Positions 165 through 24,044 of a stretch of DNA of 41,938 nucleotides are shown one piece after another; within the stretch, counting starts at the first letter, position 1, and every line of letters begins with the position of its first letter. A program made the position numbers and the translations under genes. Location of the stretch: assembly GCA_001829155.1 (NCBI GenBank), contig MIAO01000100.1, positions 1 through 41,938 of the forward strand. Direction: 5' to 3'. Below the pieces are notes generated by a model. That model did no database searches, was not told the origin of the DNA, and saw only the letters and a list, made by a program, of their open reading frames with translations. The stretch comes from Spirochaetes bacterium GWB1_36_13 (lineage in GTDB: Bacteria > Spirochaetota > GWB1-36-13).

Positions 165-191
165 CAAGCTGGATTATATTCATCCAGCTTG
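165..191 (-). terminator. Hairpin downstream of the Mbx operon
   Basis: A perfect 10-bp stem (165-174 pairs with 182-191, GC-containing, 7-nt loop) lies 18 bases past the stop of the last gene of the minus-strand operon. The minus-strand sequence after it is pyrimidine-rich but has no clean run of T, so it may act as a terminator or as a 3'-end stabilising hairpin. Bases 1-164 hold no gene I can recognise. Confidence 0.45.
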
Positions 192-208: not shown

Positions 209-2209
209 TTATTGATTTAAGTATTCATCGATTGCCTGAGCGGAGCGGTGTCCGTCGGCGATTCCGTGGATAATATCCGGTCCGTGGAGGATGTCTCCGC
301 CGATAAAGAACCAGTCCAGACTGGTTCTGCCTTTTTCATCGGATTTGATTCGTCCCTGTTCAAATTCCAGCTGATCTTTGAAATCTCCCAGATAACTGTA
401 ATCGGCCGATTGTCCGATGGCTTCCACAATCATGTCTCCATAGAAGATTTTTTCTTCGCACAGGTCAAAAACAGGGTGGAATCGTTTATTTTCATCAAAG
501 ACGCTGAGGCATTTCACGGTTTTCAGTCCCCGCACATTGCCTTTCTCATCGAAAATCACTTCCTGAGGTGCACGGCTTGGTTCCAGCATCACCCCTTTGG
601 TCTGTTCCACAGTACAGATATTCATGACAGCGTTTTTCCCGTTTTCCGGGTTTATGACTGTAATACACTCAAGCTTTTCACCCGCTTTCAGTTTCACGGT
701 GTTTCCGAATGGGTCGATTACCAGCTGCTGAGGGTCTTTGGCGGCAATATCCGATTCCAGATTAAGCCCTTCTTCCCGGCTTTCCACCAGTTCTTCCAGA
801 TCGGCAGGAAGTTCTTCTTCTTTCTCCAAACTCGTGATAATCATACTGACCTTGCCGTATTTCTGCCGCTGGAGACGGGAGAGGGTACGGGCAATGTCGA
901 AGGCTACATTTCCGCCGCCGATGATAATAATGTTTTTCCCGACAGGGATTTCTTCGCCTTTTCGGAAACGGTTTAAAAGTTCAATCGCTTTCTCGCTTTT
1001 CCCCTGTATTCCTTTTATATCGATTCCCCGGGCATTTTGAAGTCCTGTGGCGATAAACACGGCATCGGAGTCTTTTTTGATCCGATCCATTGATAGGTCT
1101 TTCCCTATTTTCTGACCGGTTTTGATTTCTACTCCGAGAGAGCGGATGACTTCAATATCTCTATCCAGCGCTTCATCCGGCAGACGGTAGGCAGGGATTC
1201 CGTAGCGCATCACTCCGCCCGCTTTTTTCCCTTCATCGTAAACGGTCACTTTATGCCCCAGGAGGCTTAAATAATAGGCAGCAGAGAGTCCTGACGGTCC
1301 ACCTCCGATTATGGAGATTTTTTTATTTCCGGAGCCTTTCACATATTCTTTGCTGACTTTAATAATTTCCTCGGTCGGCAGGCTGTCCACTGCGTAGCGT
1401 TTCAGCCATCGGATAGCGATCGCTTCACCCCGGTGGGAGATGGCGCAGACACTTTCACATTTATGGGTGCAGACCCGTCCGCAGACATTGGGGAGAGGAT
1501 TGTCTTCGTAAATTTGGCGCACCGATTCTTCCACATCGCCGTCCCAGATGGCGCGGATATATTCAGGAATATTCATATGCGCCGGGCAGGTTTCGGTACA
1601 GACACCGCATTCCACACAGCGGGAGGCTTCTTTTTCAGCCTGTTTCTTGGAATATCCTTTGATAATTTCCAGAAAATTGTCCCATCGTTTTTCCGGGGCG
1701 AGGTGCTCTATTTTTACCCGGTTTAAATCCAGCCAGGAGAGTTCATCAGGGGTCTGATATCCAAGGTTATGAATATATTTATCCCCTGCTACCACCTGAA
1801 GGGTCTTTTTGACATCTTCTACTTCATCATCTCCAAACTTGTCAATCGGAGTGGGGTAGTTGAAAAGATAATCCCGGCTCATGTTGAGAGAACCCGTAGG
1901 GCAGATATCCACACAGAAAGCACAGAAACAGCACCGTCCGTAATCAATCTCCGGCCTTTTGCCCAGCTTTCCTTCGCCTTTGTTCTCTCCTTCCACCATT
2001 TTGATGGCAGCAGTAGGGCAGATATCGGCACAGGTTCCGCAGCCGATACAGATATGGATATCGTTGCTGTGCAGCCCGCGGTAGGTGGGAGCAGCCCCTT
2101 CCTTGCCGAAGGTCGTGATATCTTCTTTCGGATAACGGACAGTGGTCGGTTTTTTAAACAAATTCTTCCAGAATGCCAAGGGAGAGAAAAAACTTTTTTT
2201 AAAACTCAT
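209..2209 (-). CDS. Fusion of Mbx/Mbh N-type ferredoxin subunit with GltD/NfnL-type FAD-NAD(P) oxidoreductase
   Basis: Predicted electron-transfer subunit of the membrane complex encoded just upstream. Residues about 45-115 form a NuoI/MbhN-like domain with two Cx2Cx2Cx3CP motifs (C54-57-60-64 and C93-96-99-103) for two [4Fe-4S] clusters. Residues about 185-275 match the N-terminal Fe-S domain of GltD, NfnL and dihydropyrimidine dehydrogenase (C198-201-204-208 and C243-247-251-255). A Rossmann FAD motif (GGGPSG, 302-307) and a second nucleotide motif (GGGNVAFDIA, 431-440) follow; GGD near 638-640 is the C-terminal FAD contact. In Mbh and Mbs the N subunit is a separate short protein, so the flavoprotein is an added module. 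The arginines usual after the second nucleotide fold are replaced by ITSLEKEEELPAD, and about 60 extra residues lie near 483-555. The ATG at 2209 is chosen over TTG 2233 because AGGAG sits 6 bases before it. It is the last gene of the operon, 13 bases after mbxL. The domains are secure; the donor and acceptor are inferred. Confidence 0.9.
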   Translation of the reverse strand: MSFKKSFFSPLAFWKNLFKKPTTVRYPKEDITTFGKEGAAPTYRGLHSNDIHICIGCGTCADICPTAAIKMVEGENKGEGKLGKRPEIDYGRCCFCAFCVDICPTGSLNMSRDYLFNYPTPIDKFGDDEVEDVKKTLQVVAGDKYIHNLGYQTPDELSWLDLNRVKIEHLAPEKRWDNFLEIIKGYSKKQAEKEASRCVECGVCTETCPAHMNIPEYIRAIWDGDVEESVRQIYEDNPLPNVCGRVCTHKCESVCAISHRGEAIAIRWLKRYAVDSLPTEEIIKVSKEYVKGSGNKKISIIGGGPSGLSAAYYLSLLGHKVTVYDEGKKAGGVMRYGIPAYRLPDEALDRDIEVIRSLGVEIKTGQKIGKDLSMDRIKKDSDAVFIATGLQNARGIDIKGIQGKSEKAIELLNRFRKGEEIPVGKNIIIIGGGNVAFDIARTLSRLQRQKYGKVSMIITSLEKEEELPADLEELVESREEGLNLESDIAAKDPQQLVIDPFGNTVKLKAGEKLECITVINPENGKNAVMNICTVEQTKGVMLEPSRAPQEVIFDEKGNVRGLKTVKCLSVFDENKRFHPVFDLCEEKIFYGDMIVEAIGQSADYSYLGDFKDQLEFEQGRIKSDEKGRTSLDWFFIGGDILHGPDIIHGIADGHRSAQAIDEYLNQ

Positions 2210-2222
2210 AAAAAACTCCTTC

Positions 2223-3368
2223 CTATCTGTCAAAATCCGGCGGACAAACAGCCAGGCTTGCCATCCAGATTGCTACATCGTCAATTAATAAACCGGGAAG
2301 CTGTTCCTGGGAAAGGTACAATCCCGCCGGAAGCGAAGGCCCCCGCACCGATACACGGTAAGGTTTCAAACCTCCGTCGGATACAACATAGTATCCATAC
2401 TCGCCTTTGGAAGACTCCACTTTTGCATAAGTGTCTCCGGCAGGCACTTTAAACTTGAGGGGATTGCCCAGATCAACCCGGATTTTAGTTTCACTGTAAG
2501 GGAACTTATCCAGAATCTGCTCGATCAGATCGAGAGTCATGGCATATTCTTTACGGATCTGAATTGCCCTTGCTAAAGCGTCTCCGCCTTCGGTGACCGG
2601 AATATTGAGTTCCAGTTCGGGGTAGGCTTCATAAGGATCGTCCAGACGGACATCGGCCAGATACCCGGTTGCCCGGAGGTTTGGTCCCACCAGCCCTACA
2701 TTGACAGCGTGCTCAGTGGTGATGGTTCCTATTCCCGAGAGCCTTTTTTGAACCACTGGGTTTTGAAAAAGGAGTTTGTCCCACTCAGGGATATTTCCTT
2801 TCAGATAAGTGATCACTTCCCTGAATTTTTCTACCCAGCCGTTCGGAAGGTCTCTCCTCACTCCGCCGGGAATATTATAGATATGGTAAACTCTTGCTCC
2901 GGTGAGCCATTCAAAAAAATCTAAAATCTTGTCGCGGTCGTCCATCATCCGGTACATGGTGCTGTAAAGCCCCGTCATGGCGGAAAGCGCTCCCATTCCC
3001 ATCAGGAAAGAAGTGGTACGGCTCATTTCCAGGGTCAGAGTCCGAAGGTATTTTACTTTTTTAGGGGTTTCAATACCTGCCAGGCGTTCTATCGCATTGC
3101 AGTAAACCACCTCATTGGGGTCAGGGTCCACAACGCAGATTCTTGGGATCAGACTCATGTTCTGAAACCAGAGTTTCTGCTCCATCAGTTTTTCAAATCC
3201 CCGGTGCAGAAGCCCTGCGCTCGGTCTTGCTGAAATAATGGTGGAACCGATGACATTCAGCACATAGGAAAAATTTCCGTGCATTCCCGGGTGGTTCGGT
3301 CCAAAAAACAGTTCATAAGTGCTGTATTTTTCATTTTCTGCCAGCTTGGTTAATTCTGTGAATGACAT
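2223..3368 (-). CDS. mbxL: Mbx/Mbs L-type subunit (NuoD / [NiFe]-hydrogenase large-subunit homologue) lacking the full Ni site
   Basis: Large catalytic-arm subunit of an Mbh/Mbs-type respiratory complex, 381 aa, facing the cytoplasm. FGPNHPGMHG near the N-terminus and RTTSFLMGMGA are typical of the NuoD/HycE fold. True group 4 hydrogenases carry two CxxC pairs that hold Ni-Fe. Here the first region reads RICVVDPDPN (only Cys78; Asp81 at the second position) and the last reads SLAVCPPDFDR (only Cys375), with no maturation tail after it. Complex I NuoD usually has none of these cysteines, so one Cys at each site resembles the sulfane-reductase subunit MbsL as I recall it. ATG 3368 has AGGAGG 6 bases before it, and the gene overlaps the end of mbxK by 19 bases. 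It is probably not a hydrogenase. Confidence 0.93.
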   Translation of the reverse strand: MSFTELTKLAENEKYSTYELFFGPNHPGMHGNFSYVLNVIGSTIISARPSAGLLHRGFEKLMEQKLWFQNMSLIPRICVVDPDPNEVVYCNAIERLAGIETPKKVKYLRTLTLEMSRTTSFLMGMGALSAMTGLYSTMYRMMDDRDKILDFFEWLTGARVYHIYNIPGGVRRDLPNGWVEKFREVITYLKGNIPEWDKLLFQNPVVQKRLSGIGTITTEHAVNVGLVGPNLRATGYLADVRLDDPYEAYPELELNIPVTEGGDALARAIQIRKEYAMTLDLIEQILDKFPYSETKIRVDLGNPLKFKVPAGDTYAKVESSKGEYGYYVVSDGGLKPYRVSVRGPSLPAGLYLSQEQLPGLLIDDVAIWMASLAVCPPDFDR

Positions 3369-3859
3369 GAAGGTCCTCCTTCATTTTCTTTTACTTCGGC
3401 TCCATAAGCCCTGATCGAATACTCCCGTGTGTCAAAATCTTTTCGAAGCGGCGGGAGGTCTTTCCAGTTATGCAGGAAGAGAGGTTCCAGATTGGGGTTT
3501 CCGATAAAATTGACCCCGAACATCTCGTGAATTTCCTGTTCATAAACCTGAGCCTGAGGCCAGATCCCATGAATGGTAGGAACTTCAGCTTTATTTCTGG
3601 GGAGTGCAACCTTTACGGTCATCTGAATTTTGTATTTGTAAGACCAGAGGTTATAGGTTACATGAAACTCATTTTGATCAATCCAGTCCACACAGGTCAG
3701 GTTGGAAAGGTGTTCAAACCCCTCTGACTTGGCAATGGTTAAAAAACCGTTGATCATCTGGGCGCTCACCCGTGACTCAATCTGATTGTGAAACCGTTCC
3801 TTGATTTCGATATCGGAAAAAAGGCTTTTCAGACGGGCGGTCATTTCTTGATTGGTCAT
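3350..3859 (-). CDS. mbxK: Mbx/Mbh K-type subunit (NuoC-like, 30-kDa subunit family)
   Basis: A 169-aa NuoC/EchD/MbhK-like subunit that packs against the J and L subunits in the cytoplasmic arm. The sequence shows the family pattern of a mixed alpha/beta domain ending in IWPQAQVYEQEIHEMFGV followed by PLFLHNW and PPLRKDF, close to the complex I 30-kDa signature (YEREVYDMFGI...HPDLRRLL). It carries no cofactor motif. The start ATG overlaps the stop of mbxJ as ATGA with a GGAGGG ribosome site before it, and the gene runs 19 bases into mbxL, so these three subunits are probably translationally coupled. Confidence 0.92.
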   Translation of the reverse strand: MTNQEMTARLKSLFSDIEIKERFHNQIESRVSAQMINGFLTIAKSEGFEHLSNLTCVDWIDQNEFHVTYNLWSYKYKIQMTVKVALPRNKAEVPTIHGIWPQAQVYEQEIHEMFGVNFIGNPNLEPLFLHNWKDLPPLRKDFDTREYSIRAYGAEVKENEGGPSCHSQN

Positions 3860-4428
3860 TTCAACCCTCCTGTGTCGAGAACGGGTGCGGTTCTTTCCAG
3901 AACTTCCCGCTGATTTTTTTTATACCACTCGTAGTTCAGCTGATATTTTTTATGACCGACGGCTTCTCCCTTGTCGATCATTTGAATCAGGGTCAAAAGC
4001 CCGTCTAAAACAGCCTGGGGTCTCGGCATGCATCCCGTCAGGCTTAAGTCCACCGGAATATATTTATCCAGATAGTTGATGGTGGCGTAACTGTCCCAGT
4101 AAATTCCGCCGTTGACCGGGCAGGAGCCGAACCCCACTACATATTTCGGATCCGGCATCTGCTCATAGCTTCGGACAATCCGTTTCAGAGTTTTGGCGGA
4201 AACATATCCGGTAATCAGTAAGATATCGGCTTGGCGGGGAGTGGCCATAGGGCCTATCCCAAAGCGTTCCATATCGAATCGGCTGGTCATGGTAGGGGGA
4301 AGCTCAACCGCACCGCAGCCGGTACAATAATAAAGCATCCAAAGGCTTCGCTGACGGAAAAAGTTCAATACCCTTTCCCATTTGTTATCTACAATCTCCT
4401 GTCTGCTGACAGTAATAAAATCACCCAT
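3856..4428 (-). CDS. mbxJ: Mbx/Mbs J-type subunit (NuoB / hydrogenase small-subunit homologue), proximal [4Fe-4S] cluster
   Basis: Small electron-transfer subunit of 190 aa that holds the cluster nearest the active site. The four ligands are visible: Cys35 and Cys38 (YYCTGCGAVE), Cys103 (GSCPVNGG) and Cys133 (GCMPRPQ). The spaced CxxC is the hydrogenase/Mbx type rather than the adjacent CC of complex I NuoB. In the Pyrococcus sulfane reductase this proximal cluster is, from memory, the proposed site of polysulfide reduction, so its presence beside a Ni-less L subunit matters. It lies 33 bases after mbxM with an AGAGG ribosome site and overlaps mbxK by 4 bases. Confidence 0.94.
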   Translation of the reverse strand: MGDFITVSRQEIVDNKWERVLNFFRQRSLWMLYYCTGCGAVELPPTMTSRFDMERFGIGPMATPRQADILLITGYVSAKTLKRIVRSYEQMPDPKYVVGFGSCPVNGGIYWDSYATINYLDKYIPVDLSLTGCMPRPQAVLDGLLTLIQMIDKGEAVGHKKYQLNYEWYKKNQREVLERTAPVLDTGGLK

Positions 4429-4461
4429 TTTGAACCTCTTTTCTTTCTGCCCTGTAAAGGG

Positions 4462-5352
4462 TTATTTCATATACATATTTAAGGCCAGCTGAATCACAGC
4501 AAGTCCGCCTGCATAGATCCATAAAAAGCGGACTGCCTGTTCTACCCGGTAACGGGCGTAAATTTCACTGAATAGAGTCAATACCATATAGACAATGAAC
4601 TGTTTCAGGACAAACTCCCATACCGTAGCTCCTCCGCCCAGAAAGAGGGCAGTGAGGAGGCCGGTTTCTACAAAAACAGCCACCGAGTATTGTAAAAAAG
4701 CCAGTCCGAGAAATTTTCCTGAAAGCTCCACCATGGGACCGGATGCAATCTCTGCCGGAGCAATCATGACATCAAAAGGTTTTTTTCCGGTCATTGCCTC
4801 CAGAGCCAGTAAAGACGCCAGAAATCCGAAAGGCATTTTAATAATGTGCCAGTTTTCAATTCCGCCTGCCTGCGCCTGCATAATGGAGAGGATATTAGTG
4901 GTCCCGTAATTGCTGATAAAAGACATCACAACAATGGCAAAAGGGATTTCATATCCCAGCATCAGGGTCAATGCTCTTCCTATCCCGATACTGGCCAGCG
5001 GGTTTCCTGAAGCGGAAACGCTTACGGCCATTCCCAGATATCCGATCGGCATAAAATACAGGATCAGAATAAGAGGCGAGTCGGAAGGAAAGGGAAGAAT
5101 CCCTCCCATCGGAACATACATGGCAGCGGCAAGGAGTCCTGCCAGTCCCATCAGGGCGCACAGATCCATGATGAAATTGTGGGAAATACTCTTCCGGCTG
5201 AAGGCTTTAATCACATCGATAAAACTCTGCCAGAAAGGAGGTCCGTACCGGCGCTGGAGCCTTGCGGTCAGTTTTCTTGAGATTCCCATAAATAAAAGCC
5301 CGATGGCCATTGCGGCCAATGCCCATAATACAAAATTGAGTGCATACATCAT
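4462..5352 (-). CDS. mbxM: Mbx/Mbh M-type subunit (NuoH / HyfC homologue), membrane anchor of the redox arm
   Basis: A 296-aa integral membrane protein with about eight hydrophobic segments, belonging to the NuoH/HyfC/EchB family. It joins the peripheral redox arm to the ion-pumping subunits. RRYGPPFWQSFIDVIKAF near residues 34-51 is the amphipathic cytoplasmic region conserved in this family, and ALEAMTGKKPFDVMIAPAEIASGP matches the cytoplasmic loop in which NuoH carries a PFDxxEAEsE-like signature; here Glu is kept in PAEIASGP. The start overlaps the stop of the preceding H' gene (ATGA). Two adjacent ATG codons are possible starts. Confidence 0.92.
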   Translation of the reverse strand: MMYALNFVLWALAAMAIGLLFMGISRKLTARLQRRYGPPFWQSFIDVIKAFSRKSISHNFIMDLCALMGLAGLLAAAMYVPMGGILPFPSDSPLILILYFMPIGYLGMAVSVSASGNPLASIGIGRALTLMLGYEIPFAIVVMSFISNYGTTNILSIMQAQAGGIENWHIIKMPFGFLASLLALEAMTGKKPFDVMIAPAEIASGPMVELSGKFLGLAFLQYSVAVFVETGLLTALFLGGGATVWEFVLKQFIVYMVLTLFSEIYARYRVEQAVRFLWIYAGGLAVIQLALNMYMK

Positions 5353-7235
5353 AGCAGTATTCCTATAACAAGAATTATTATCACTGACAGAGTCATAACC
5401 AGTGTCCCCATGTGAGGAGAGGCAAACCAGTTCTTCACTGCATTTGCAAAACGACTGACTTCCAATGTGATTTGGGAAAACCAGCTCTCGGCGTTGATTT
5501 TATCCAGAGCCGGAGCCGTCATTTTTTCAAAAGGTTCATAAAACTTCATGGCGTAATGCAGGTCTTCAGGAGTAAGACCCCAATCCTCAGGAGTTTCTCC
5601 TGCGGTATAATTGTCCATCATCTCTACGAAGCGTCTTTTTTTTCCGATCAGGAATAAGATAAATGCGAAGACAAATGCGCCGAGAAATACGCTTCCGGCT
5701 ATCAGAAGATCCACGCTGCTGGTAAACCCGGAGATTGAAGTCCAGTCAGCTTTGACAGCCTGATTGCTCACGGCCGAGAGGACTTCATTGACAGGACCCA
5801 TAATGATGCCGGGAAAAAATCCCGCCGCAAGCATGACCAGCATGAGAATAATCATGGCCAGAGACTGGAGCGGGGGAGCGTCTTTAATGTCTTTAAAACG
5901 GGGGGATAACTGCCCGAGATAGATGGAGTGGAGTCCCCGGTAGAGGTAAAGGAAGGCTCCAGTGGAAGCCAGAAAAATAGGGATCGCCATAAAAAACATG
6001 TGGCGGTTGAAAAGAGACTGAAAAACCAGCCATTTGGAGGCAAAACCGCTGGTAGGCGGAATTCCTGCGGCAGCGATAATGGAAATCAGAAACCCGAAGA
6101 AAGCGATCGGCATCCGGTAGCCCATTCCGCCCAGACGGTGCATTTCCCGTTCTCCGGTTCTAAACTTGACAGAAGCCATGGAGAGGAATATTCCGCCTTT
6201 AAAAACCATGTGGTTGACAGTATGAAAAAGAGCTGCTGCCAGTCCGAAATAAGTGTTCATAGACAGCGCTGCCAGAATAAACCCAATATTGGAGACGGTG
6301 GAATAAGCCATGAGGCGTTTCATATCGTTTTCCCGGATGGCCAGGAGAGTGCCCCAGAGAGCGGTAAAGGCTCCGATCCAGCCGAGGATAAAAAGAAAAA
6401 CCGGGATACCGAGAATGGCGGCTCCGTGATAGGAAGCCCCAAAAAGAGGCAGAACCATGCTCATCAGCCCGAAAACCCCGTATTTAATCATAACCCCGGA
6501 CAAAAATGCCGAGAAATCATCGGGAGCTTCGGCATGAGCCTTGGCCGGCCACATATAAAATGGGAAAACAGCTGATTTGGCAAAAAAAGTAAGGGTCAGG
6601 AGAACAGCGACCGTCAGGACAAAACTTCCGTCTGCTGTCCAGAGGCTGGAGAGAATCCCGATCCCTTCTTTCAGCATCAGAGTTCCAGTTTTTTGTATGA
6701 TAAGCATAACAGCGGCAAGCAGGGTAGAGGTTCCTATCAGAGAGAGGATAAAATAGTAGAGTCCCGCTTTTGCAGATTTGAGTTTTCCATGGGAAATAAT
6801 AAAATAGGATGTCCATCCCATCAGTTCCCATGCCGCAATGAAAGTGATCCAGTCTGCCGATAAAAACAAGGCAAAATTGGCTCCCATCAAGAGTGTCCAT
6901 AAAGGGGCAATTCCTGTGGCATGTTTTTTGTCGTTGTAGGAAAAAGAAAAAACGGCAAAAATCAGAGTAATCAATACGGAAGCCATTAGAAAGAAATAAC
7001 CGATCTCACTGTTTACCAGTGTCAGTTCAATATTTTCAATCCCTAAAAAAGTAAAAGGGAGTTTAATTTTTTCTACAGTTCCTTTCAAGCTCCATAATTG
7101 AAAAACAGCAAAAAGCTGCCAGGCCGCATTCAGTAAAAACAAACTCCACTGAACTTTTTTCCATTTCGATAAAGCAAAAGAGAGGAGTCCTGCCGCCAAA
7201 GCAATAGAGATGCTGATTGTCATCCAGTGTGTCAT
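5349..7235 (-). CDS. mbxH': Second antiporter-like subunit (H'), NuoL/MrpA-type proton- or Na+-conducting membrane protein
   Basis: A 628-aa polytopic protein of the proton-conducting NuoL/M/N family, the longer of two such subunits here. Conserved polar residues within membrane segments are visible: Glu in FIAAWELMGWTSYF, Lys in FAKSAVFPFYMWPAKAHAEAP, and LMAYSTVSNIGF with HTVNHMVFKGGIFL further on. A hydrophilic stretch followed by one C-terminal hydrophobic segment resembles the lateral-helix tail of NuoL. Mbh has one H-type antiporter subunit while Mbx/Mbs has H and H', so this duplicate helps assign the complex. It starts one base after the stop of mbxH and overlaps mbxM by 4 bases. Confidence 0.9.
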   Translation of the reverse strand: MTHWMTISISIALAAGLLSFALSKWKKVQWSLFLLNAAWQLFAVFQLWSLKGTVEKIKLPFTFLGIENIELTLVNSEIGYFFLMASVLITLIFAVFSFSYNDKKHATGIAPLWTLLMGANFALFLSADWITFIAAWELMGWTSYFIISHGKLKSAKAGLYYFILSLIGTSTLLAAVMLIIQKTGTLMLKEGIGILSSLWTADGSFVLTVAVLLTLTFFAKSAVFPFYMWPAKAHAEAPDDFSAFLSGVMIKYGVFGLMSMVLPLFGASYHGAAILGIPVFLFILGWIGAFTALWGTLLAIRENDMKRLMAYSTVSNIGFILAALSMNTYFGLAAALFHTVNHMVFKGGIFLSMASVKFRTGEREMHRLGGMGYRMPIAFFGFLISIIAAAGIPPTSGFASKWLVFQSLFNRHMFFMAIPIFLASTGAFLYLYRGLHSIYLGQLSPRFKDIKDAPPLQSLAMIILMLVMLAAGFFPGIIMGPVNEVLSAVSNQAVKADWTSISGFTSSVDLLIAGSVFLGAFVFAFILFLIGKKRRFVEMMDNYTAGETPEDWGLTPEDLHYAMKFYEPFEKMTAPALDKINAESWFSQITLEVSRFANAVKNWFASPHMGTLVMTLSVIIILVIGILL

Positions 7236-7236
7236 G

Positions 7237-8718
7237 TTAGATACCCCCGCCCAAAATATTTTTGATATAGACTGCGTTATCCATTAAGTCGGCGGTTACT
7301 TTTTTGAGAACTCCCATGATGGTTTCAGGGCAGATTCCGACCCACAGGATCAAGACGGAAAAAACAATGACTGTAACCGATAAGATCCAGTTTTTACTGC
7401 TTTTCAATTCCCGCTCGGGAGAAATAAAAAAGTGGTGTCCGATCCTCATCAGATAAGCCCCTTCTATCACGACAGCAGTTAAAACTGCAACAGCGCCGGC
7501 AGAAATCAGTCCTGAACCTGAAAAAAGGCTTCTTAAAAGTTCTAATTTCCCCCAGAATCCGGCAAAGAATGGAATTCCCATGAGAGAAAGACTGGCAATG
7601 ATAAAAGCAGCTCCCAGTACCGGGTTTTTCCGTCCTGCTCCCTGCATTTCTTTCCAATTATTACTTCCGGTTATTTCGGCGAACTTTCCGGCAATGAGAA
7701 GAAGAAGCGGTTTAGCCAGAGTATGGGCAAAAAGGATAAAAAGTCCTGCATAAACCGCGTTTTCTACAGGAAGGGCAAAAGCGAGTACAGCCAGCCCCAT
7801 CTGTCCGACAGAAGAAAATCCCAGAAGTTTTTTCAGCTTTTTTTCTCTGAGGGCGGCCAGTTCCCCGAAGAGGACTGATGCGATTCCCACGAGAAGCAGA
7901 ATATTTCCCATTTTTTGAATTGAGCCTTGGAAAACCGCTCCTTGGGCGGTAATGGTTACCCAGAAACGCGCCAGCACCAGTCCGGCCGTCATGCTTCCGA
8001 TTCCGGCAACAGCCGCTGAAAAAGGAGAAGAAGCCCCCTGATAAACTTCGGGAACCCAGGCATTGAAAGGAAAGAGTTCAGCTTCAAAAAAGAAAGCGGT
8101 AAAAATCAGTACCAGTATCAGGAGTCCGAAAGACGCTCCCAATACTCCGCCGGAAGAAAGATGCGCCATATTTAAAGTTCCGGCTGCAGAATAAAGAAGA
8201 CCGATACCGGTCAGCATCAGCATAGAGGTCAGTCCTGCGCTGATTAAGTATTTGAGCGAGCCCCGGCTGCCCCAGGCCTGATTGACGGAAGCAGTCAGGC
8301 TGATAGTGGTAATAGAGGCAATTTCAATCAGGACAAAGAGATTGAAAAGGTCGCCGGTTAAAACCATTCCCACATTGGCAAAGATAAAAAGCTGGAACAA
8401 AAGCTGGTAGTTGGCTTTTCGTTCTTTATTTAAGTCATTCAGGCTGATAAAAAATCCCATGAGATAAATCAGCGTTCCGGCACCTACTGAAAGGGGGCTG
8501 TAATAAAGGTTGATTCCGTAAGGAGCCTTCCATCCTCCCATGAGGAGATTTTTGCTGTTTAAAAGAATATCCGGAAGAATTATGATACCTAAAATCAAAC
8601 CTGCCAGATAAACGGCAGGAGAGAGGAACCGTCCATATTTTTTGCTGAAAATACTCCCCAGAGGAACCGTAAAAGCGGCAATCAGGGGGACAATCAGAAA
8701 GAGTGTTTCTAAAATCAT
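7237..8718 (-). CDS. mbxH: Antiporter-like subunit H (MnhD/MrpD, NuoM/N-type)
   Basis: A 493-aa polytopic subunit of the MrpD/NuoN family, with about 14 membrane segments and a predicted ion-translocation path. Key family features are LFNLFVLIEIASITTISL (intramembrane Glu) and FFEAELFPFNAWVPEVYQGA, where a charged residue interrupts the segment. KKLLGFSSVGQMGL is the usual broken-helix region. The ATG at 8718 is preferred over TTG 8724: it gives an ATGA overlap with the stop of mbxG and puts GAGG 7 bases upstream. With the H' gene directly downstream, the complex has two ion channels of this type. Confidence 0.92.
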   Translation of the reverse strand: MILETLFLIVPLIAAFTVPLGSIFSKKYGRFLSPAVYLAGLILGIIILPDILLNSKNLLMGGWKAPYGINLYYSPLSVGAGTLIYLMGFFISLNDLNKERKANYQLLFQLFIFANVGMVLTGDLFNLFVLIEIASITTISLTASVNQAWGSRGSLKYLISAGLTSMLMLTGIGLLYSAAGTLNMAHLSSGGVLGASFGLLILVLIFTAFFFEAELFPFNAWVPEVYQGASSPFSAAVAGIGSMTAGLVLARFWVTITAQGAVFQGSIQKMGNILLLVGIASVLFGELAALREKKLKKLLGFSSVGQMGLAVLAFALPVENAVYAGLFILFAHTLAKPLLLLIAGKFAEITGSNNWKEMQGAGRKNPVLGAAFIIASLSLMGIPFFAGFWGKLELLRSLFSGSGLISAGAVAVLTAVVIEGAYLMRIGHHFFISPERELKSSKNWILSVTVIVFSVLILWVGICPETIMGVLKKVTADLMDNAVYIKNILGGGI

Positions 8719-9083
8719 TCGCAAACCTCATTCTCTTTTTCATCATCAATATTGACGAAATCGATGGTTTTATGTTTTTGGTGATACCGTAAGGCGACAA
8801 CCAGTCCTAAAGCCGTTGTTCCAAACCCGATAACAATCGAGGTCAGAATGAGAGCCTGAGGCAGGGGATCGACAAAAAGAGACAGATTGGAAGAGCTTTC
8901 AGTAATGATAGGAGCTTTTCCATCTGGAATATATCCCAGTCCTACAATCAGAAGGTTGACCCCGGTCTGAAGGATGTTGATGGACATTAAAATCTTGAAA
9001 ATATTTTTACGGGTCAGGATTCCAAAGATTCCGATTAAAAAGAGGATTCCTGCCTGAAGGAGAAATAAGTCTGTCAAGTTCAT
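8715..9083 (-). CDS. mbxG: Antiporter subunit G (MnhC/MrpC, NuoK-like)
   Basis: A 122-aa membrane subunit with three hydrophobic segments typical of MrpC/NuoK. FKILMSINILQTGVNLLIVG contains the conserved middle helix, and PLPQALILTSIVIGFGTTAL is the third-helix signature of MnhC. The hydrophilic C-terminal tail is rich in Asp and Glu. In the Mrp family this subunit pairs with MrpD, which is the next gene. The start overlaps the stop of the MnhB-type gene and has GAGGAGGA before it; the end overlaps mbxH by 4 bases. Confidence 0.93.
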   Translation of the reverse strand: MNLTDLFLLQAGILFLIGIFGILTRKNIFKILMSINILQTGVNLLIVGLGYIPDGKAPIITESSSNLSLFVDPLPQALILTSIVIGFGTTALGLVVALRYHQKHKTIDFVNIDDEKENEVCE

Positions 9084-9844
9084 GAGTTTGTTTCCTCCTC
9101 TCCAATCATATAAGAAGCAACGGAAGTAAGCTCGCTGGCCACCTTGATGCCTATCAGAAGGTAGAGGAGCATGACGATTCCGCCGCTGAATAACTCTCCG
9201 ATGTTCCCGTTGGGAAGAAAATTAAAGAAAAAATAGCCGTTTTTCAAGGTGCCCCAGAAAGCGGCTCCGATGATTCCCAGTCCGGCAAGAGATTCTACCG
9301 CTAAAAGAATTTTCTTTTTCAGAAAATTTTCTTTAAAGAGGACCAGAAAGACAAATCCTCCAGCAATCAGTGCTCCTCCCGGAAACCCTCCTCCCGGGGT
9401 CAGATGCCCGTGCAGAATAATAAAAATTCCGACTAAAAGAGTGAGCAGGCTCACAATAGGGATAGCAGTTTGAATCACAATACTGGCAGGTACTACTGTT
9501 CTTTTTCTGCGTTTACCCATAAGCAGACCCACACCTGCGATTGAAGCAAAGAGAACCAGTATTTCGCCCAGAGTGTCAAAAGCCCGGTAGCTGACCACAA
9601 TGGATGTCACAATATTGGCAGAGCCTTCTTCATGACCGCTGTCTCCCATTTGAACGGTTTTTACCATATTTTGTTCATTTACATTTTTATAGATATAAGA
9701 TTCTGAAACCTTTTCGCTTTTTGCAATGCTTCGCCAGTTTTTACCCTGTTCCCCGTTGAAAAGGGCTTTGTAAACTACTGCCGAGAATAGTATCAGCATG
9801 AGAAAAACAAAAAGGTTCAGCATGTTTTGATGGCGGGTTTTCAA
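9080..9844 (-). CDS. MbhE-MbhF-type fused subunit (MnhB domain), antiporter module
   Basis: A membrane subunit of about 254 aa with two parts. The N-terminal half has one membrane segment, a periplasmic-type stretch and the MbhE-like pattern TSIVVSYRAFDTLGEI. The C-terminal half is an MnhB/MrpB domain with the signature LHGHLTPGGGFPGGALIAGG. In Mbh these are two genes (E and F). The longest reading frame starts 37 bases inside mbxD, but an excellent ribosome site (GGGGGAGG, 9851-9858) lies 6 bases before a TTG at 9844 that follows the mbxD stop by one base, so I place the start there. ATG 9823 is a later alternative. Confidence 0.88.
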   Translation of the reverse strand: MKTRHQNMLNLFVFLMLILFSAVVYKALFNGEQGKNWRSIAKSEKVSESYIYKNVNEQNMVKTVQMGDSGHEEGSANIVTSIVVSYRAFDTLGEILVLFASIAGVGLLMGKRRKRTVVPASIVIQTAIPIVSLLTLLVGIFIILHGHLTPGGGFPGGALIAGGFVFLVLFKENFLKKKILLAVESLAGLGIIGAAFWGTLKNGYFFFNFLPNGNIGELFSGGIVMLLYLLIGIKVASELTSVASYMIGEEETNS

Positions 9845-9845
9845 T

Positions 9846-10106
9846 TTATTCCTCCCCCGTGAGTTCTTCATTCTGTTCTTCATAGCGTTTAATCGACCAG
9901 AAGTAGAGGGCAGTGGTCAAAACCGCCCCGATAGAAGCTTCGGTGATTGCCACATCATAAGCTTTCATAAAAACAAAAACAACCGAAGCAATCAAGCTTA
10001 CCACGCCCATAATAACGGCAGATTTCTTGACCGATTCTGCAAAGATGACAGCGATACTGCTGGCAACCATAAGAAGACCGCTGATAATTAAAACAGTCTG
10101 CATCAT
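9846..10106 (-). CDS. mbxD: Antiporter subunit D (MbhD / DUF4040 family)
   Basis: A small 86-aa membrane protein with three hydrophobic segments, corresponding to MbhD and to the C-terminal part of MrpA. The motif VAITEASIGAVLTTALYFWSI contains the conserved Glu and matches the DUF4040 signature (..EAslGaal..a). Its start overlaps the end of mbxC by 4 bases and two adjacent ATGs are possible. The gene order MnhE, F, G, MbhD, MnhB, C, D is the order of archaeal mbh and mbx operons and differs from bacterial mrpABCDEFG. Confidence 0.9.
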   Translation of the reverse strand: MMQTVLIISGLLMVASSIAVIFAESVKKSAVIMGVVSLIASVVFVFMKAYDVAITEASIGAVLTTALYFWSIKRYEEQNEELTGEE

Positions 10107-10417
10107 TTTTCACCGCCTTTCTGTTCTTCTCCCAGTTCAAATAAACCGGACTTTTTTGCCGCTCTTGCCAGCGCATGGCTGCCCAGAGGGTTTGTGAGAA
10201 GGAGGATGGCTGCAATTAAAATAATTTTAAACGTCCATTCCGGTTTTACCAGCAAGGCTCCCAGTGCAGCTGAGAGAAATCCCAGAGTAGTTGCTTTGGT
10301 TCCGGCCTGAAGCTTGTTGAATACATCGGGCATCCTGTAAAGCCCCAGCGCTCCTAAAAACAGAAACAGCGAACCCAGGATAATAAAAAATGTTCCAATG
10401 ACTTCTAAGATTCCCAT
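10103..10417 (-). CDS. mbxC: Antiporter subunit C (MnhG/MrpG)
   Basis: A 104-aa membrane subunit with three hydrophobic segments and the MnhG/MrpG signature: GLYRMPDVFNKLQAGTKATTLG after the first segment, then TNPLGSHALARAA near the end. It is part of the cation/proton antiporter module of the complex. The start codon shares one base with the stop of mbxB and a run of AAAGGGGG lies just before it. The end overlaps mbxD by 4 bases. The soluble tail after residue 85 is lysine- and glutamate-rich. Confidence 0.93.
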   Translation of the reverse strand: MGILEVIGTFFIILGSLFLFLGALGLYRMPDVFNKLQAGTKATTLGFLSAALGALLVKPEWTFKIILIAAILLLTNPLGSHALARAAKKSGLFELGEEQKGGEK

Positions 10418-10671
10418 TAAAGCCCCCTTTCCTGATAACGAGCCACTACAAAAACAGCCCCAAAAGACAGCAAAGCATAGACAATGGCAATGTCTAAAAG
10501 AAAAGAACTGTCAAAAATAAGGCTGAATAAGACCAGACCGGCTGAAAATAAAGTGGTAATCACATCCAGAGCAACCATTTTTTCAACCAATGAACGGCTT
10601 TTCACCAGAGACGCGAGAGATAGAACAGCTCCCAGTCCTGTCAAGCCCAGAGCGATATTGTATAACATCAT
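10417..10671 (-). CDS. mbxB: Antiporter subunit B (MnhF/MrpF)
   Basis: A tiny 84-aa membrane protein with three hydrophobic segments. The pattern VEKMVALDVITTLFSAGLVL followed by LLDIAIVYALLSFGAVFVVARY is diagnostic of MnhF/MrpF, in which the intramembrane Asp residues are conserved. The start overlaps the stop of mbxA by 4 bases, and the stop overlaps the start of mbxC by 1 base. In Mrp complexes the small E, F and G subunits sit together next to the antiporter core. Confidence 0.92.
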   Translation of the reverse strand: MMLYNIALGLTGLGAVLSLASLVKSRSLVEKMVALDVITTLFSAGLVLFSLIFDSSFLLDIAIVYALLSFGAVFVVARYQERGL

Positions 10672-11150
10672 TCGGTAATCCTTTTGATGAATTTTTCAAA
10701 AACCTGCATGATTTCTTCCCCGTTTTTATAAACATTCCGGACGCAGTGGATGGCAAATTTGTCTCCATCGACATCAACCGTTAATGTTCCGGGCGTCAGA
10801 GTGATAGAATTGGCCAAAAGAGTTTTACCCAGAGGCGAACTCAGGGTTGTTTTTCCTTTGACAATGATGGGGGAAAGTTTCAGTTTGGGGTTCAGGATAA
10901 TCAAAGCCATCTCAAAATTGGCTTTCATCATAGCCCAGATAAAAACCGGCAGATAGACGATCAGCCAGAAAATTCTGACTGGATTCAAATACCGGGCCTC
11001 CAACTGAAAAAAGGACTGCACTAAAAGTGCAATAACGGCACTGACAAAAGCTCCGGTAATTATTTCCTGCCCGTTCAGGGAACCTGCGAGAATCAGGTAG
11101 ATCAGAAAAGTATAAAGAGCAATGCCAATGACACTCAAAATTTTTTTCAT
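10668..11150 (-). CDS. mbxA: Antiporter subunit A (MnhE/MrpE), first gene of the Mbx-type operon
   Basis: A 160-aa MnhE/MrpE-type subunit. The first 80 residues contain about three hydrophobic segments. The C-terminal part is a small soluble domain with SPLGKTLLANSITLTPGTLT, the strongest family signature, followed by IHCVRN. It is the promoter-proximal gene of a 13-gene minus-strand operon in which every neighbour overlaps or is separated by at most about 33 bases. The ribosome site is weak (GGTG about 7 bases before ATG 11150). A TATAGT at 11193-11188 could be a -10 box, but no good -35 was found. Confidence 0.93.
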   Translation of the reverse strand: MKKILSVIGIALYTFLIYLILAGSLNGQEIITGAFVSAVIALLVQSFFQLEARYLNPVRIFWLIVYLPVFIWAMMKANFEMALIILNPKLKLSPIIVKGKTTLSSPLGKTLLANSITLTPGTLTVDVDGDKFAIHCVRNVYKNGEEIMQVFEKFIKRITE

Positions 11151-14738: not shown

Positions 14739-15467
14739 ATGATAAAAAAAATAAAAGCGCTCGTTTTATTCTTCCTATTAACCGGATTAATAGTCGGAAT
14801 ATCTAAAGTCAGCAGCGGTTTCGGAGGAGCAGTTAATATTCAGACTATGGTCATAGAAGGTTTTGAAGAAAAAGACGGCTGGGAAGCAAAATATTCAAAA
14901 TTCAGATGCAGAAACTGGAATAATGAAGACAAAGAAAAACCAGACGAATCAAAATCCTGGATCACTTGGGTTGAATCAAACGGCGAAGATGGACTTTTAC
15001 CAGACGGTCTTCCAAAAGAGCTCAGAGGAAAACAGGAAAAAACAACAATGGGTGTCAAAGGCTGTTTTGATGTCAAAGGTTATAACTGGATCGTTCTTGA
15101 ACCTAAAAAACCGCTTATTTCAAAAGGAATTACCAAAGCAATCGATTTATGGGTATGGGGCTCCGGATATAATTACGACCTTTATATTGTCATAAAAACC
15201 TGGCAGGGTACTTACTATTCTCTTTACATGGGAAATTTAAGTTATTACGGATGGCAGAATCTGAGAGTGGAAATACCTGAGTATATCAGTCAGTTTACAA
15301 GTTATGTTCCAAGAATTAAACCTATTCAGGTTGTGAGACTGAAACTTGTATCCAAACCGGATGAGAAACCGGATGATTTTTATGCTTATTTTGATTATAT
15401 GCAGATTCAGACAGATATTTACGAAGAAAGATATAACGGCGATAATTTAAATAATAACAGATGGTAA
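14739..15467 (+). CDS. flaA: FlaA-family periplasmic flagellar filament outer-layer protein (first copy)
   Basis: A 242-aa secreted protein of the spirochaete FlaA family, the glyco-/sheath layer around the FlaB core of periplasmic flagella. The signal peptide is MIKKIKALVLFFLLTGLIVGI with a likely cut after SSG or nearby. FlaA hallmarks follow: VIEGFEEKDGWEAKYSKF after the signal, GVKGCFDVKGYNWIVLEPKKP, IDLWVWGSGYNYDLYIVIKTWQG, GWQNLRVEIPEYISQ and FYAYFDYMQIQTD. It ends in an Asn-rich tail with NRW. An AAGGAG ribosome site lies upstream and the second copy begins 25 bases after its stop. Family assignment is from these patterns; which FlaA type it represents is not determined. Confidence 0.9.
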   Translation: MIKKIKALVLFFLLTGLIVGISKVSSGFGGAVNIQTMVIEGFEEKDGWEAKYSKFRCRNWNNEDKEKPDESKSWITWVESNGEDGLLPDGLPKELRGKQEKTTMGVKGCFDVKGYNWIVLEPKKPLISKGITKAIDLWVWGSGYNYDLYIVIKTWQGTYYSLYMGNLSYYGWQNLRVEIPEYISQFTSYVPRIKPIQVVRLKLVSKPDEKPDDFYAYFDYMQIQTDIYEERYNGDNLNNNRW

Positions 15468-15492: not shown

Positions 15493-16314
15493 ATGAAAAA
15501 ACTAAGACTGCTGATTTTATCTTTGGCAATTTTAACGATAGGAATCATGTATGCGCAGCAGGATGGTGGAACTACGACCACAACAACAACAGAAACCACT
15601 CCGAAAGATAAAATTGATTACGGCGGGGTAAAAGACGAAGCTTCTGATGCAAATAAAGGCACTCAGGAACAGAGTTTGTATAAAGTCACAATCGACACCT
15701 TTGAAAGATCAGGCGAGTGGAGAGCAAGTATGCCTCTGGAATATGGTCTTGTGAATGTAAAAGAACTTCCGGGAGCTCCTTATGAATTAGCTCAAATGAA
15801 CTCTGAAAAAGTAAAAACCCCTCCTAAATACGGAATGAGCGGAGCAAAAAACAAGACTTATTTTGAAGAAGAAATGGATAATCATGCTCAGATTATGGGT
15901 GTGAGAATCGATTATATGCAAAGAGGATACGGATGGGCAAGAATCCAGCCTCCTTTCCCAATCAAACTGGAAGGTCTGGTTAAAGGCTTTGAAATGTGGG
16001 TTTGCGGTAGAAATAAAAGACATAAACTTTATGTTGTTTTAAAAGACTACTATGGAGAAGAAAAACTTCTTGAAGTCGGACAGTTGAATTTTATGGGATG
16101 GAAAAAAATGAGTATTCAAATCCCTTACACTATTGTTCAGCAGGATTTTAGATTTTCTACTTCCAGAGGGATTACTTTTGACGGATTTGTCATTAATTTT
16201 AACCCTGAAGAAACAACAGGAAAATTATACATTTATTTTGACAATTTATCAGTTGAGCTTTCTCGATTCCTTGAAGAAAATAGAGACCAAGATGATCCTT
16301 TAGATGTTTGGTAA
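15493..16314 (+). CDS. flaA: FlaA-family periplasmic flagellar filament outer-layer protein (second copy)
   Basis: A 273-aa secreted FlaA-like protein. The signal peptide runs to about AQ at residues 21-22 and is followed by a short Thr tract (residues 27-33) absent from the first copy. It shares the family layout: YKVTIDTFERSGEWRASM, GVRIDYMQRGYGWARIQPPFP, GFEMWVCGRNKRHKLYVVLKDY, GWKKMSIQIPY and LYIYFDNLSVE. Its tail, DDPLDVW, ends in Trp like the first copy. A GGAGC ribosome site precedes it. It is clearly diverged from its neighbour, so the two probably play distinct roles in the sheath. Transcription should stop at the hairpin starting 23 bases downstream. Confidence 0.9.
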   Translation: MKKLRLLILSLAILTIGIMYAQQDGGTTTTTTTETTPKDKIDYGGVKDEASDANKGTQEQSLYKVTIDTFERSGEWRASMPLEYGLVNVKELPGAPYELAQMNSEKVKTPPKYGMSGAKNKTYFEEEMDNHAQIMGVRIDYMQRGYGWARIQPPFPIKLEGLVKGFEMWVCGRNKRHKLYVVLKDYYGEEKLLEVGQLNFMGWKKMSIQIPYTIVQQDFRFSTSRGITFDGFVINFNPEETTGKLYIYFDNLSVELSRFLEENRDQDDPLDVW

Positions 16315-23500: not shown

Positions 23501-24044
23501 TGTCCTTTATGATTTGATTTTTAAACGATTTATTGCTTCCCAGATGAAAGAGACAAAAATCAGGAAACAGAAAGCGGTGATTAAGGCAGGGGACGCGAAA
23601 GTCGAAATGGAGAGAAATATTGCTGTTGTAGAAGAAGGGTTTAGTAAAATAACCCCTCCCTATCTCCAGGAACCGCTGAAAAAATCAAGCAAAATACCGG
23701 TAAAAGAAATAAAATCCGTGACCCGTTCTGATAAAAAACTCTATACTCAGGCGGATGTTATTCAACTCATGAAGGAAAAAGGACTGGGAAGACCCTCTAC
23801 TTACGGTCAGATTATCTCTACCTTGATTTCAAGGGGTTATATTATGGAGGTTAAATTTGGAAGGCTGATTCCAACTAAAAAAGGAATCGGGGTTTATCAG
23901 TTTCTTTCAGAAAAATATAAAGACATTTTTTCAGACGAACGAACCAAGAGTCTGGAACAGATTATGAAAGAAATAGAGGAAGGAAAGACGGACTATCAAA
24001 AAGTTTTAAAAATGATTTATCAGGAAATCAAGCCGGAAAAATAA
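20520..24044 (+). CDS. rgy: Reverse gyrase (helicase-topoisomerase IA fusion)
   Basis: A 1174-aa ATP-dependent enzyme that introduces positive supercoils, normally found in hyperthermophiles and some thermophiles. In order: an N-terminal zinc finger (Cys14, 17, 32, 35), helicase Walker A APTGIGKTT (Lys113), Walker B variant ADDTDA (213-218), SGRTSRLF late in the helicase half, then the topoisomerase half starting with Toprim Glu612 (LVESPTKAG), a second zinc finger (Cys686, 689, 700, 703), the acidic STDPDTEGEK triad (Asp733, Asp735, Glu737) and catalytic Tyr920 (GLITYHRTDS). All essential residues are present and the length is normal, so it should be active. It is transcribed away from fliE. 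ATG 20520 has TGAGGT upstream. It ends before a small GC hairpin. Confidence 0.98.
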   Translation: MNQYHIHGSYDYFCPNCGNSNDDGRNISKHPCPVCISEFHENIQEDEIVKELKKNKTLKNYSSIVELNIKLKEYTKIFSKIIQSEPWSIQRTWFKRIVQGKSFTALAPTGIGKTTFGIITALFLSHEEKKKSVILCPNSVLLHDIVDRLNEYKTLIKAKTEVLYYTSKFSPKKKLEFEERVKNQDYDILVITNQFLSRKFVLLEGTFYDFLFADDTDALLKASGNIDRILKMIGFSQEDLGKAFEYIKSSFKYSKNSSDETFVQAHKVLKDDVTGIKNTKKIGTLIISTATGKGRGMRPKLFKALLSFDIGGKVEGGGRIADLIDEDDSEKNLLQYIKKMGRGGLVFIPISKGTAYAEIVTAMLKKNKIKAVLAESGKMNKIIKDLKEGEIEIVVGVSTHYGLLVRGLDLPETIRYAIFLGVPNFKFSVNMQEQANSFQLIRILGALSYVLEDKEKERVEKQLRTLKKNSFSPKVIEHSYKIAQEYYTKPEVIESLKKSDEIVFKEEDGNRFMLVPDISTYIQASGRTSRLFLEGFTQGISLVLESDKRMAHFLSRRMKWLQDRAFIPLKDANLDDLIEKVNIDRDKVRNLKQSKRRKKIIDKSKTALMLVESPTKAGLISNLLGKPGIRYYKSFSAYEVAMGEINLIIVSTMGHVYDLTTGDVGFHGVHIEKDFFMGRYSTIKSCKSCKKQFTYPSDVCPKCGNKDFYDKKDMVEDLKDLAKEVDIVFISTDPDTEGEKIGWDMASLLSPYVSEVKRITFHEVTKRGILEAFKGIGELNENLVEAQLVRRMQDRWVGFEFSGILKEQFNEFNISAGRVQTPVLGYIIERNKENEETKKKYYAILTEFFYLEVLKEQAEEVKKTKQIQISSLKEEDVILNPAPPFTTDTLLAEANRRYSFSVTKIMELAQELFENGLITYHRTDSPHVSEFGKNLAREFVKENFGEELTYTRSWGDEGSHECIRPTRGIAVQSLRELIFEGDLFVATPLTNPHFVLYDLIFKRFIASQMKETKIRKQKAVIKAGDAKVEMERNIAVVEEGFSKITPPYLQEPLKKSSKIPVKEIKSVTRSDKKLYTQADVIQLMKEKGLGRPSTYGQIISTLISRGYIMEVKFGRLIPTKKGIGVYQFLSEKYKDIFSDERTKSLEQIMKEIEEGKTDYQKVLKMIYQEIKPEK

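Follow-up and report, generated by a model that had tools for sequence, protein, structure and literature searches.

A bacterial Mbx operon with a ferredoxin–flavoprotein fusion: a candidate NADH-fed, sulfane-reducing ion pump in Spirochaetes bacterium GWB1_36_13

The contig MIAO01000100.1 of Spirochaetes bacterium GWB1_36_13 (assembly GCA_001829155.1; 3.04 Mb in 151 contigs, 93% complete) encodes a respiratory complex of the Mbx/Mbs type, in which the ferredoxin subunit N is fused to a flavoprotein of the GltD/NfnL type. The stretch of DNA analyzed here (the window) is this whole contig (C100) with its 41,938 nucleotides; the operon comprises 13 consecutive open reading frames (ORFs) on the minus strand, running from position 11150 to position 209 (Table 1). 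We propose that this complex passes electrons from NADH to a sulfane substrate (polysulfide or disulfide) and couples this reaction to Na+/H+ transport, a reading to which we give a probability of about 0.5.

The genes follow the order MnhE, F, G, MbhD, MbhE and MnhB in a single chain, MnhC, H, H', M, J, K, L, and the N-fusion. A scan against Pfam and NCBIfam took in 10 of the 13 ORFs; E, F, and G are named by sequence and operon position. A preliminary description of this DNA had recognized the archaeal-type order of the 13 genes, which we confirm, and had described the genes as overlapping, which does not hold throughout: gaps of 33 bases between J and M, 1 base between H' and H, and 13 bases between L and the ATG of N interrupt the series. 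Since the contig stops 208 bases beyond the stop codon of the fusion, genes farther downstream are out of view.

The N position is occupied by one uninterrupted ORF with zero internal stops, which spans 209–2233 if read from a TTG, or 209–2209 if read from an ATG. The latter start gives the 666-residue protein that had been described as a fusion of a two-cluster ferredoxin with a GltD/NfnL-type iron–sulfur flavoprotein, and all of the domains are indeed present in this chain. In the 674-residue numbering of the longer form, a NuoI-like domain with two [4Fe-4S] motifs (residues 11–124) is followed by Fer4_20 (185–286; 105 bits, cut-off 25.8) and Pyr_redox_2 (from 305; 82 bits, cut-off 26.1). 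The N-terminal MbxN domain resembles MbsN, MbhN, and NuoI of complex I (6u8y_N, 6cfw_N, 2fug_9), and all eight cysteines of its motifs are invariant in an alignment of 23 fusion rows. A frameshift or an assembly join as the origin of the fusion can be rejected, since the frame is uninterrupted and the full-length fusion recurs in many independent assemblies, including the complete genome zrk6; a few of the relatives' fusions are cut by contig ends.

An AlphaFold model of the fusion, computed from 23 rows (mean predicted local distance difference test (pLDDT) 72.6, predicted template modeling score 0.69), finds its best structural match in NfnL (5jca, target template modeling (TM) score 0.86), followed by NfnABC, StnABC, and GltD. 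Dihydropyrimidine dehydrogenase is also among the Foldseek matches (TM 0.57, root-mean-square deviation about 14 Å), and superposes in parts only. This enzyme combines an NADPH-FAD module and four [4Fe-4S] clusters in one chain, but it is soluble and reduces pyrimidines at FMN. Equivalents of two NfnB residues were placed by counting along an alignment with NfnL-type chains. Arg187, which forms a hydrogen bond to N5 of the flavin in NfnB (PMC6405883), corresponds to R342 and is invariant in 23 of 23 fusions. The position of Glu117, a ligand of the proximal cluster in NfnB (PMC7596348), is occupied by K270. This residue is a lysine in all 23 fusions, and also in the aligned NfnABC chains.

Subunits J and L indicate which kind of complex the fusion belongs to. 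MbxL scores 355 bits against the L subunit of the sulfane reductase MBS from P. furiosus (6u8y_L), 216 bits against the best complex I chain, and 131 bits against Mbh; for MbxJ the corresponding scores are 243 bits (6u8y_J), 134 bits (NDH-1), and 115 bits (MbhJ). MBS differs from Mbh in that a shortened CxxC motif in J leaves a substrate-reducing proximal cluster with three cysteines, and its L subunit retains just two of the four Ni-site cysteines, C85 and C385 (PMC7684303). The MbsJ-type CxGC spacing (CTGC) is found in J of GWB1_36_13 and of 19/19 relatives, in a test that included C93 and C123 at the proximal cluster. As in MBS, two of the four Ni-binding cysteines are present in MbxL, so the lack of a full set of Ni ligands that had been noted for this subunit is real. 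Where a relative's row shows the region, the first of these cysteines is present in 26 of 26 rows, and the second in 27 of 28 (tyrosine in locus L043); row L086 of this alignment repeats L037. In a tree of L, GWB1_36_13 falls into a clade of seven rows with support 100/100; this tree holds no intended hydrogenase reference, its sole hydrogenase-like row being the divergent Hyf-like L of the same genome on a very long branch, and the placement of the MBS and complex I rows was flagged as long-branched, so that the hydrogenase question was judged by scores. In sequence, J and L belong with archaeal MBS and not with the hydrogenases, which bears out the earlier assignment to Mbx/Mbs. No gene for NuoE, NuoF, or NuoG was found among the 13 operon ORFs (ten scanned), and no RnfABCDGE subunit was recognized in the operon. 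MbxJ of four clostridial and Mycoplasmatota loci (L044, L046, L055, L056) reads CTGCC, with a second, adjacent cysteine as in complex I.

The coenzyme of the fusion may be read from a short motif in the NAD-binding domain. The triplet YRR holds the 2'-phosphate in NfnB and in the NADP-specific DsrL-2; triplets such as S/T-L-x replace it in the NAD-specific DsrL-1, and kinetics back this rule (PMC7596348). Because S460-L461-E462 stands where YRR would be, the fusion of GWB1_36_13 is predicted to use NADH, not NADPH, which narrows the NAD(P)H input proposed earlier to a single coenzyme. Counted as distinct segments found by pattern, with identical segments counted once and pattern-missed proteins excluded, the fusions divide into 26 LE, 9 RR, and 3 ARK motifs, and other GltD-like proteins into 21 RR, 8 LE (one of which, L054, is in fact a fusion cut short), and 1 further motif. 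Fusions with YRR (phylum families f17, f31, and f49) form a second class, which is predicted to use NADPH. The separate NfnL encoded in the genome of GWB1_36_13 retains YRR, and the gene adjoining it resembles NfnS by eye.

The membrane arm contains two antiporter-like subunits. In MBS, a central charged axis is formed by E138, K250, and H330 of MbsH and by E128, K248, and H336 of MbsH' (PMC7684303). H' of GWB1_36_13 has the complete axis; H has a methionine at the equivalent of K250. Among loci with H resolved (L134 and L135 were dropped as repeats of L047 and L036), this lysine is lost in 26 of 28 other loci, or 27 of 29 with GWB1_36_13 included, and is kept in L120 and L129, two members of one family of the YRR class. 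A strict link of the loss to the fusion or to NADH use is not borne out, since the lysine is also gone from the unfused complex L118 and from the YRR loci L121, L123, L125, and L126. A weaker driving force would be matched by the loss of one channel, although this loss does not strictly track fusion or coenzyme. H' of spirochaetal relatives such as L036 carries Glu at K217 and Arg at K248. In L121, L123, L125, and L126 (family f31), one open frame of about 1160–1210 codons seems to encode both H and H'.

A contig scan with the fusion as the query returned 25 loci with 36–52% identity over the best segment. Their titles name Spirochaetes, Clostridia, Mycoplasmatota (the complete genome zrk6), Candidatus Mcinerneyibacteriota, 'delta proteobacteria', and others; one 'delta proteobacteria' locus was placed in Myxococcota by the tree tool. 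Every contig of sufficient length shows the order E F G D B/E C H H' M J K L N-fusion again (F was undetected in L047 and L051). The search for further fusion proteins and their neighborhoods that had been suggested for this system therefore finds the same order and the same fusion in several groups of anaerobic bacteria. Loci found with the fusion itself are uninformative on the share of complexes that are fused. Among 392 same-phylum genomes, drawn from a larger group, L was detected at E 1e-60 or better in 20 (22 genes). The fusion is the next recognized gene after L in 19 of these 22 cases, GWB1_36_13 included, although some 0.7 kb in L098 and some 0.2 kb in L099 separate the two genes. 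The remaining three L genes are cut off by a contig end (L097), followed by an unfused N (genome G404, L107/L118), or set in a complex-I-like order (L115). With 19 of 22 L genes followed by the fusion, the pairing is not due to chance, and the notion that the fusion is a rarity has to be given up. Two divergent copies of the fusion per genome are present in G046, G062, and G064, which suggests functional specialization.

The gene content, the fusion, the hallmarks of J and L, and the losses of YRR and of the H lysine are observed; NADH as the substrate, the direction of electron flow, the acceptor, and the coupling we infer. The FAD in the C-terminal part of the fusion would accept a hydride from NADH, and from there single electrons would pass through the two Fer4_20 clusters and the two MbxN clusters to the proximal cluster of MbxJ. 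A sulfane or disulfide, most likely polysulfide, would be reduced in the chamber formed by J, L, and M, and this reduction would drive ion translocation via the Mrp-type arm, with H' as an intact pump and H as a reduced or altered one. Coupling in complexes of the complex I type is thought to occur where the electrons from the last cluster meet the substrate in the J/L/M chamber. Because the MBS-type J and L are conserved, the wire would end on a sulfane at J/L/M, and NADH would enter at the far end. The unbroken path for electrons from NAD(P)H via flavin and clusters that the preliminary description envisaged is plausible. Of the two couplings considered there, polysulfide reduction driven by NAD(P)H fits better; the Rnf-like exchange between ferredoxin and NAD(P)H appears weaker than claimed, given the bypass of J/L/M and the frequency of RnfC discussed below.

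Several points weigh against this proposal. The potential difference between NADH and polysulfide is small under standard conditions and grows at low sulfide, so that pumping would need low sulfide or a disulfide of higher potential. No sulfur gene was recognized by eye among the larger ORFs of the contig, a minority of which were covered by the family scans. The linker between the ferredoxin and flavin halves is modeled with pLDDT below 50 and is unreliable, and the N-terminus of the model is poor. The LE-type motif also occurs in seven GltD-like proteins outside Mbx. In G404 (L118), N is a separate protein of 147 residues, no flavoprotein match was found among the ORFs of 20 kb, and this unfused complex has also lost the lysine of H (Asn at this position). 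The lineage of G017 may hold menaquinone, its MqnC score of 415 bits being close to the cut-off of 428. Finally, C25 of MbsJ and C85 and C385 of MbsL are dispensable for catalysis by MBS (PMC7684303). Since MBS does without these residues, the retained cysteines of J and L mark kinship more than function.

The operon could also encode an Rnf-like ferredoxin:NAD(P)+ oxidoreductase, in which ferredoxin docks on the MbxN/Fer4_20 clusters and the flavin reduces NAD(P)+, with the energy going to the membrane arm, or a complex that works backward and reduces ferredoxin with NADH. A large driving force is available between ferredoxin and NAD+ (PMC9304861 gives potentials), relatives of NfnL swap electrons with ferredoxin (PMC6405883), and P. 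furiosus Mbx was once regarded as a ferredoxin:NADP+ oxidoreductase, according to a view quoted in PMC6349859. The invariance of the bifurcation-linked R342 is also in line with this idea. However, the electrons would bypass the J/L/M chamber, yet MBS-type residues are retained in J and L. Such a complex would also duplicate Rnf: RnfC is above the cut-off in 34 of 40 genomes, including that of GWB1_36_13 (G000:C81), and the six genomes in which it is not speak for the exchange; in this set, G072 and G329 look like one assembly and G404 has the unfused form. We therefore consider ferredoxin:NAD(P)+ exchange unlikely. A complex with two donors, in which electrons from ferredoxin (the donor in archaeal MBS) and from NADH enter a common set of clusters, perhaps by confurcation at the NfnL-type flavin, and go on to sulfane sulfur, is rather improbable. 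The likeness of the MbxN domain to MbsN, MbhN, and NuoI and the retained equivalent of NfnB Arg187 would allow for two donors, but no NfnS-like partner gene was recognized in the operon, and the equivalent of NfnB Glu117 is a lysine throughout the fusions. NfnABC has a lysine there too, so that this residue says little against bifurcation.

Complex I reinvented with another input module, that is, an NADH:quinone oxidoreductase, seems very improbable. H30 in L of GWB1_36_13 stands at what we take to be the position of complex I His38 (assuming Nqo4 numbering), and several relatives share this histidine, but Ser, Thr, Ala, Pro, or Glu replaces it in others, and an equivalent of complex I Tyr87 is absent from L in every aligned row. 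Since neither MenD nor MqnC exceeds its cut-off in any of 40 genomes (0/40), quinone is an unlikely acceptor. An energy-conserving, Mbh-like [NiFe]-hydrogenase (group 4) fed by NADH would be consistent with the general subunit plan common to Mbh. With two of the four Ni cysteines missing and with L and J matching Mbh far more weakly than MBS, this function is extremely improbable, and we reject it.

The fusion design is already catalogued, in a family without known function. The nearest NCBIfam entry is NF010590 (PRK13984, 'putative oxidoreductase'), which the protein of GWB1_36_13 matches with 784 bits without reaching the equivalog cut-off of 946. This cut-off is passed by 1 of 25 named relative genomes and by 0 of 60 same-phylum genomes. 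Among 14 named control genomes, one, Thermotoga maritima, has a match at E 1e-250, and this match is above the cut-off. The preliminary description had mentioned that some Thermotogales carry a glutamate-synthase-beta-like gene next to an mbx operon; this is borne out in part, namely for the family membership in T. maritima. The name PRK13984 is absent from the literature searched, and we recognized no publication that describes the fusion, though many subscription papers lay outside this search, so that this is not proof of the fusion being unpublished. Mbx of T. maritima was published as a ferredoxin-fed sulfur reductase of 13 subunits, and mbxA was raised 4.36-fold after sulfur addition (PMC9431562). 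This system is similar to that of GWB1_36_13 in that the family model covers the ferredoxin half as well as the flavoprotein half, and in its 13 subunits, there raised by sulfur (PMC9431562). It differs in that its published feed is ferredoxin and not NAD(P)H, and in that the GWB1_36_13 protein remains under the 946-bit cut-off. Bacterium 3DAC contains a 13-gene MBS cluster that is mostly raised by sulfur (PMC10356935). Both sulfur responses speak for the sulfane-reducing reading.

Other known systems share parts of this design. Archaeal MBS (P. furiosus, 6u8y) is alike in the subunit plan, the cysteine spacing of J, the two cysteines of L, and the presence of both H and H'. In contrast to MBS, the operon of GWB1_36_13 has N fused to an NAD(P)H flavoprotein and a methionine at MbsH K250, and many relatives have a rubrerythrin-like partner. 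The C-terminal 500 residues of the fusion share fold and cofactors with NfnL/NfnB, NfnABC, and StnABC. Unlike NfnSL, the operon has no NfnS gene among its 13 ORFs (ten scanned) and the fusion has SLE instead of YRR; further differences are the lysine in place of NfnB Glu117 and the attached membrane complex. DsrL, an NAD(P)H:acceptor oxidoreductase from dissimilatory sulfur metabolism, likewise combines a Fer4_20-FAD-NAD flavoprotein with a second two-cluster ferredoxin in one chain, and the same motif separates its NAD(H) from its NADP(H) class (PMC7596348), but its ferredoxin domain is C-terminal instead of N-terminal and its partner is DsrAB, not a membrane pump. The predicted complexes Mbh-Bfu and Nuo-Bfu also connect a complex-I-type arm to an NAD(H)-linked flavoprotein module of unusual origin (PMC9304861). 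Their input, however, is the HydABC-related BfuABC with its own subunits and not an NfnL/DsrL-type chain fused to N. What is new here is the replacement of YRR by S-L-E in the fusion and a separate fusion class retaining YRR, the loss of the central pump lysine of H across most complexes compared, and a rubrerythrin-like partner, encoded behind the fusion or joined to it at 23 of 37 loci.

At 12 of 37 loci, a separate gene behind the fusion encodes this partner, a rubrerythrin-like domain (PF02915), and at 11 of 37 the domain is attached to the C-terminus of the fusion itself; the C-terminal tails of L041 and L047 have no Pfam match, and these and similar tails were counted by their likeness to the tail of L036. 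In 14 of 37 loci the partner was not found, and nine of these are titled Clostridia or fall within it. Among near relatives it is present in L119, L130, and L132, and not in L133; it is also present in L037. L119 contains three rubrerythrin-like genes in tandem, the middle one slightly under the Pfam cut-off. One query found no rubrerythrin-like homologue in the genome of GWB1_36_13, which is weak evidence, and the contig ends too soon to show a partner. An all-against-all comparison of flanking frames returned mostly antisense noise; apart from the rubrerythrin-like partner, what stood out was a gene of about 300 aa beside clostridial operons. Near the Mbx operon of L119 (12403–14505, minus strand), a 701-residue protein combines an iron-only hydrogenase domain with a methyl-accepting chemotaxis signaling domain, and is possibly an H2-sensing chemoreceptor.

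The same contig encodes a reverse gyrase (20520–24044, plus strand; TIGR01054, 1202 bits, cut-off 471.7), from which we conclude that the host of the Mbx operon is probably thermophilic. To our knowledge, reverse gyrase is unexpected in Spirochaetota. The record titles of several relatives presumably refer to sulfidic caves and springs. A FlaA-family protein (14739–15467, plus strand; PF04620) fits a spirochaete with periplasmic flagella, and the ORF after it (15493–16314) is similar by eye. A second complex-I-related operon with a Hyf-like order is present at locus L094 (10520–17717), on contig C128 of the GWB1_36_13 genome. The L subunit encoded on C128 is without Ni-site cysteine motifs by eye, and J has an N-terminal ferredoxin domain; this operon perhaps encodes an energy-converting hydrogenase-related (Ehr) complex. 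The inverted repeat behind the Mbx operon listed in Table 1 is only suggestive of a possible operon end.

Table 1. Features of the Mbx operon in the window, and rubrerythrin-like genes at related loci
Feature	Position	Strand	Basis or detail
Perfect 10-base inverted repeat just past the fusion stop	165..191	-	without a T-run after it
N-fusion, 666 aa: MbxN ferredoxin + Fer4_20/FAD/NAD flavoprotein	209..2209	-	ORF, family scans; TTG alternative start at 2233
FAD- and NAD-binding Rossmann domains, residues 297-666	209..1321	-	family scan, alignment, model
S460-L461-E462 at the YRR 2'-phosphate site	824..832	-	alignment
Fer4_20 two-cluster domain, NfnL/GltD type	1376..1681	-	C198 C201 C204 C208 C243 C247 C251 C255 invariant
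NuoI/MbxN-like domain, two [4Fe-4S] motifs, residues 3-116	1862..2203	-	C54 C57 C60 C64, C93 C96 C99 C103
MbxL (NuoD/MbsL-like); of four NiFe Cys positions only C78 and C375 remain	2223..3368	-	family scan, alignment
MbxK (NuoC-like)	3350..3859	-	family scan
MbxJ (NuoB/MbsJ-like)	3856..4428	-	family scan, alignment
MbxJ C35xxC38, spacing as MbsJ C25/C28 at the proximal cluster	4315..4326	-	alignment; role in MBS from PMC7684303
MbxM (NuoH-like membrane anchor)	4462..5352	-	family scan
MbxH' (NuoM-like pump; all five compared pump residues present)	5349..7235	-	family scan, alignment
MbxH (MrpD/NuoN-like); Met at the central lysine position (MbsH K250)	7237..8724	-	family scan, alignment
MnhC/NuoK-like subunit	8715..9083	-	family scan
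MbhE + MnhB domains, one chain	9080..9883	-	PF20501 + PF04039
MbhD-like subunit	9846..10106	-	PF13244
MnhG-like subunit	10103..10417	-	sequence and operon position
MnhF-like subunit	10417..10671	-	sequence and operon position
MnhE-like subunit, first gene of the operon	10668..11150	-	sequence and operon position
Rubrerythrin-like genes at related loci	L119 10777-12384; L037 11898-12380; fusion C-terminus in L036		Pfam

More tentatively, bacterial Mbx may form a branch of its own within the complex I superfamily: an ion pump driven by NADH (NADPH in the YRR class) that reduces sulfane, has an NfnL/DsrL-type input instead of NuoEFG and an additional rubrerythrin-like partner, and in which one antiporter channel would be disabled as an adjustment to NADH, which provides less driving force than ferredoxin. 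Should electrons truly enter at the fused flavoprotein, NADH (or NADPH) could sustain sulfur-dependent growth in such bacteria. The fusion would then add a route into a pump of the complex I type, next to NuoEFG, docked ferredoxin, and the BfuABC modules that have been predicted. Naturally occurring motif classes for NADH and NADPH, together with the lost pump lysine, provide handles on how ion stoichiometry relates to driving force. This analysis is mainly of value for the concrete model that it yields, a sulfane-reducing pump fed by NADH or NADPH, which is open to tests at the level of individual motifs.

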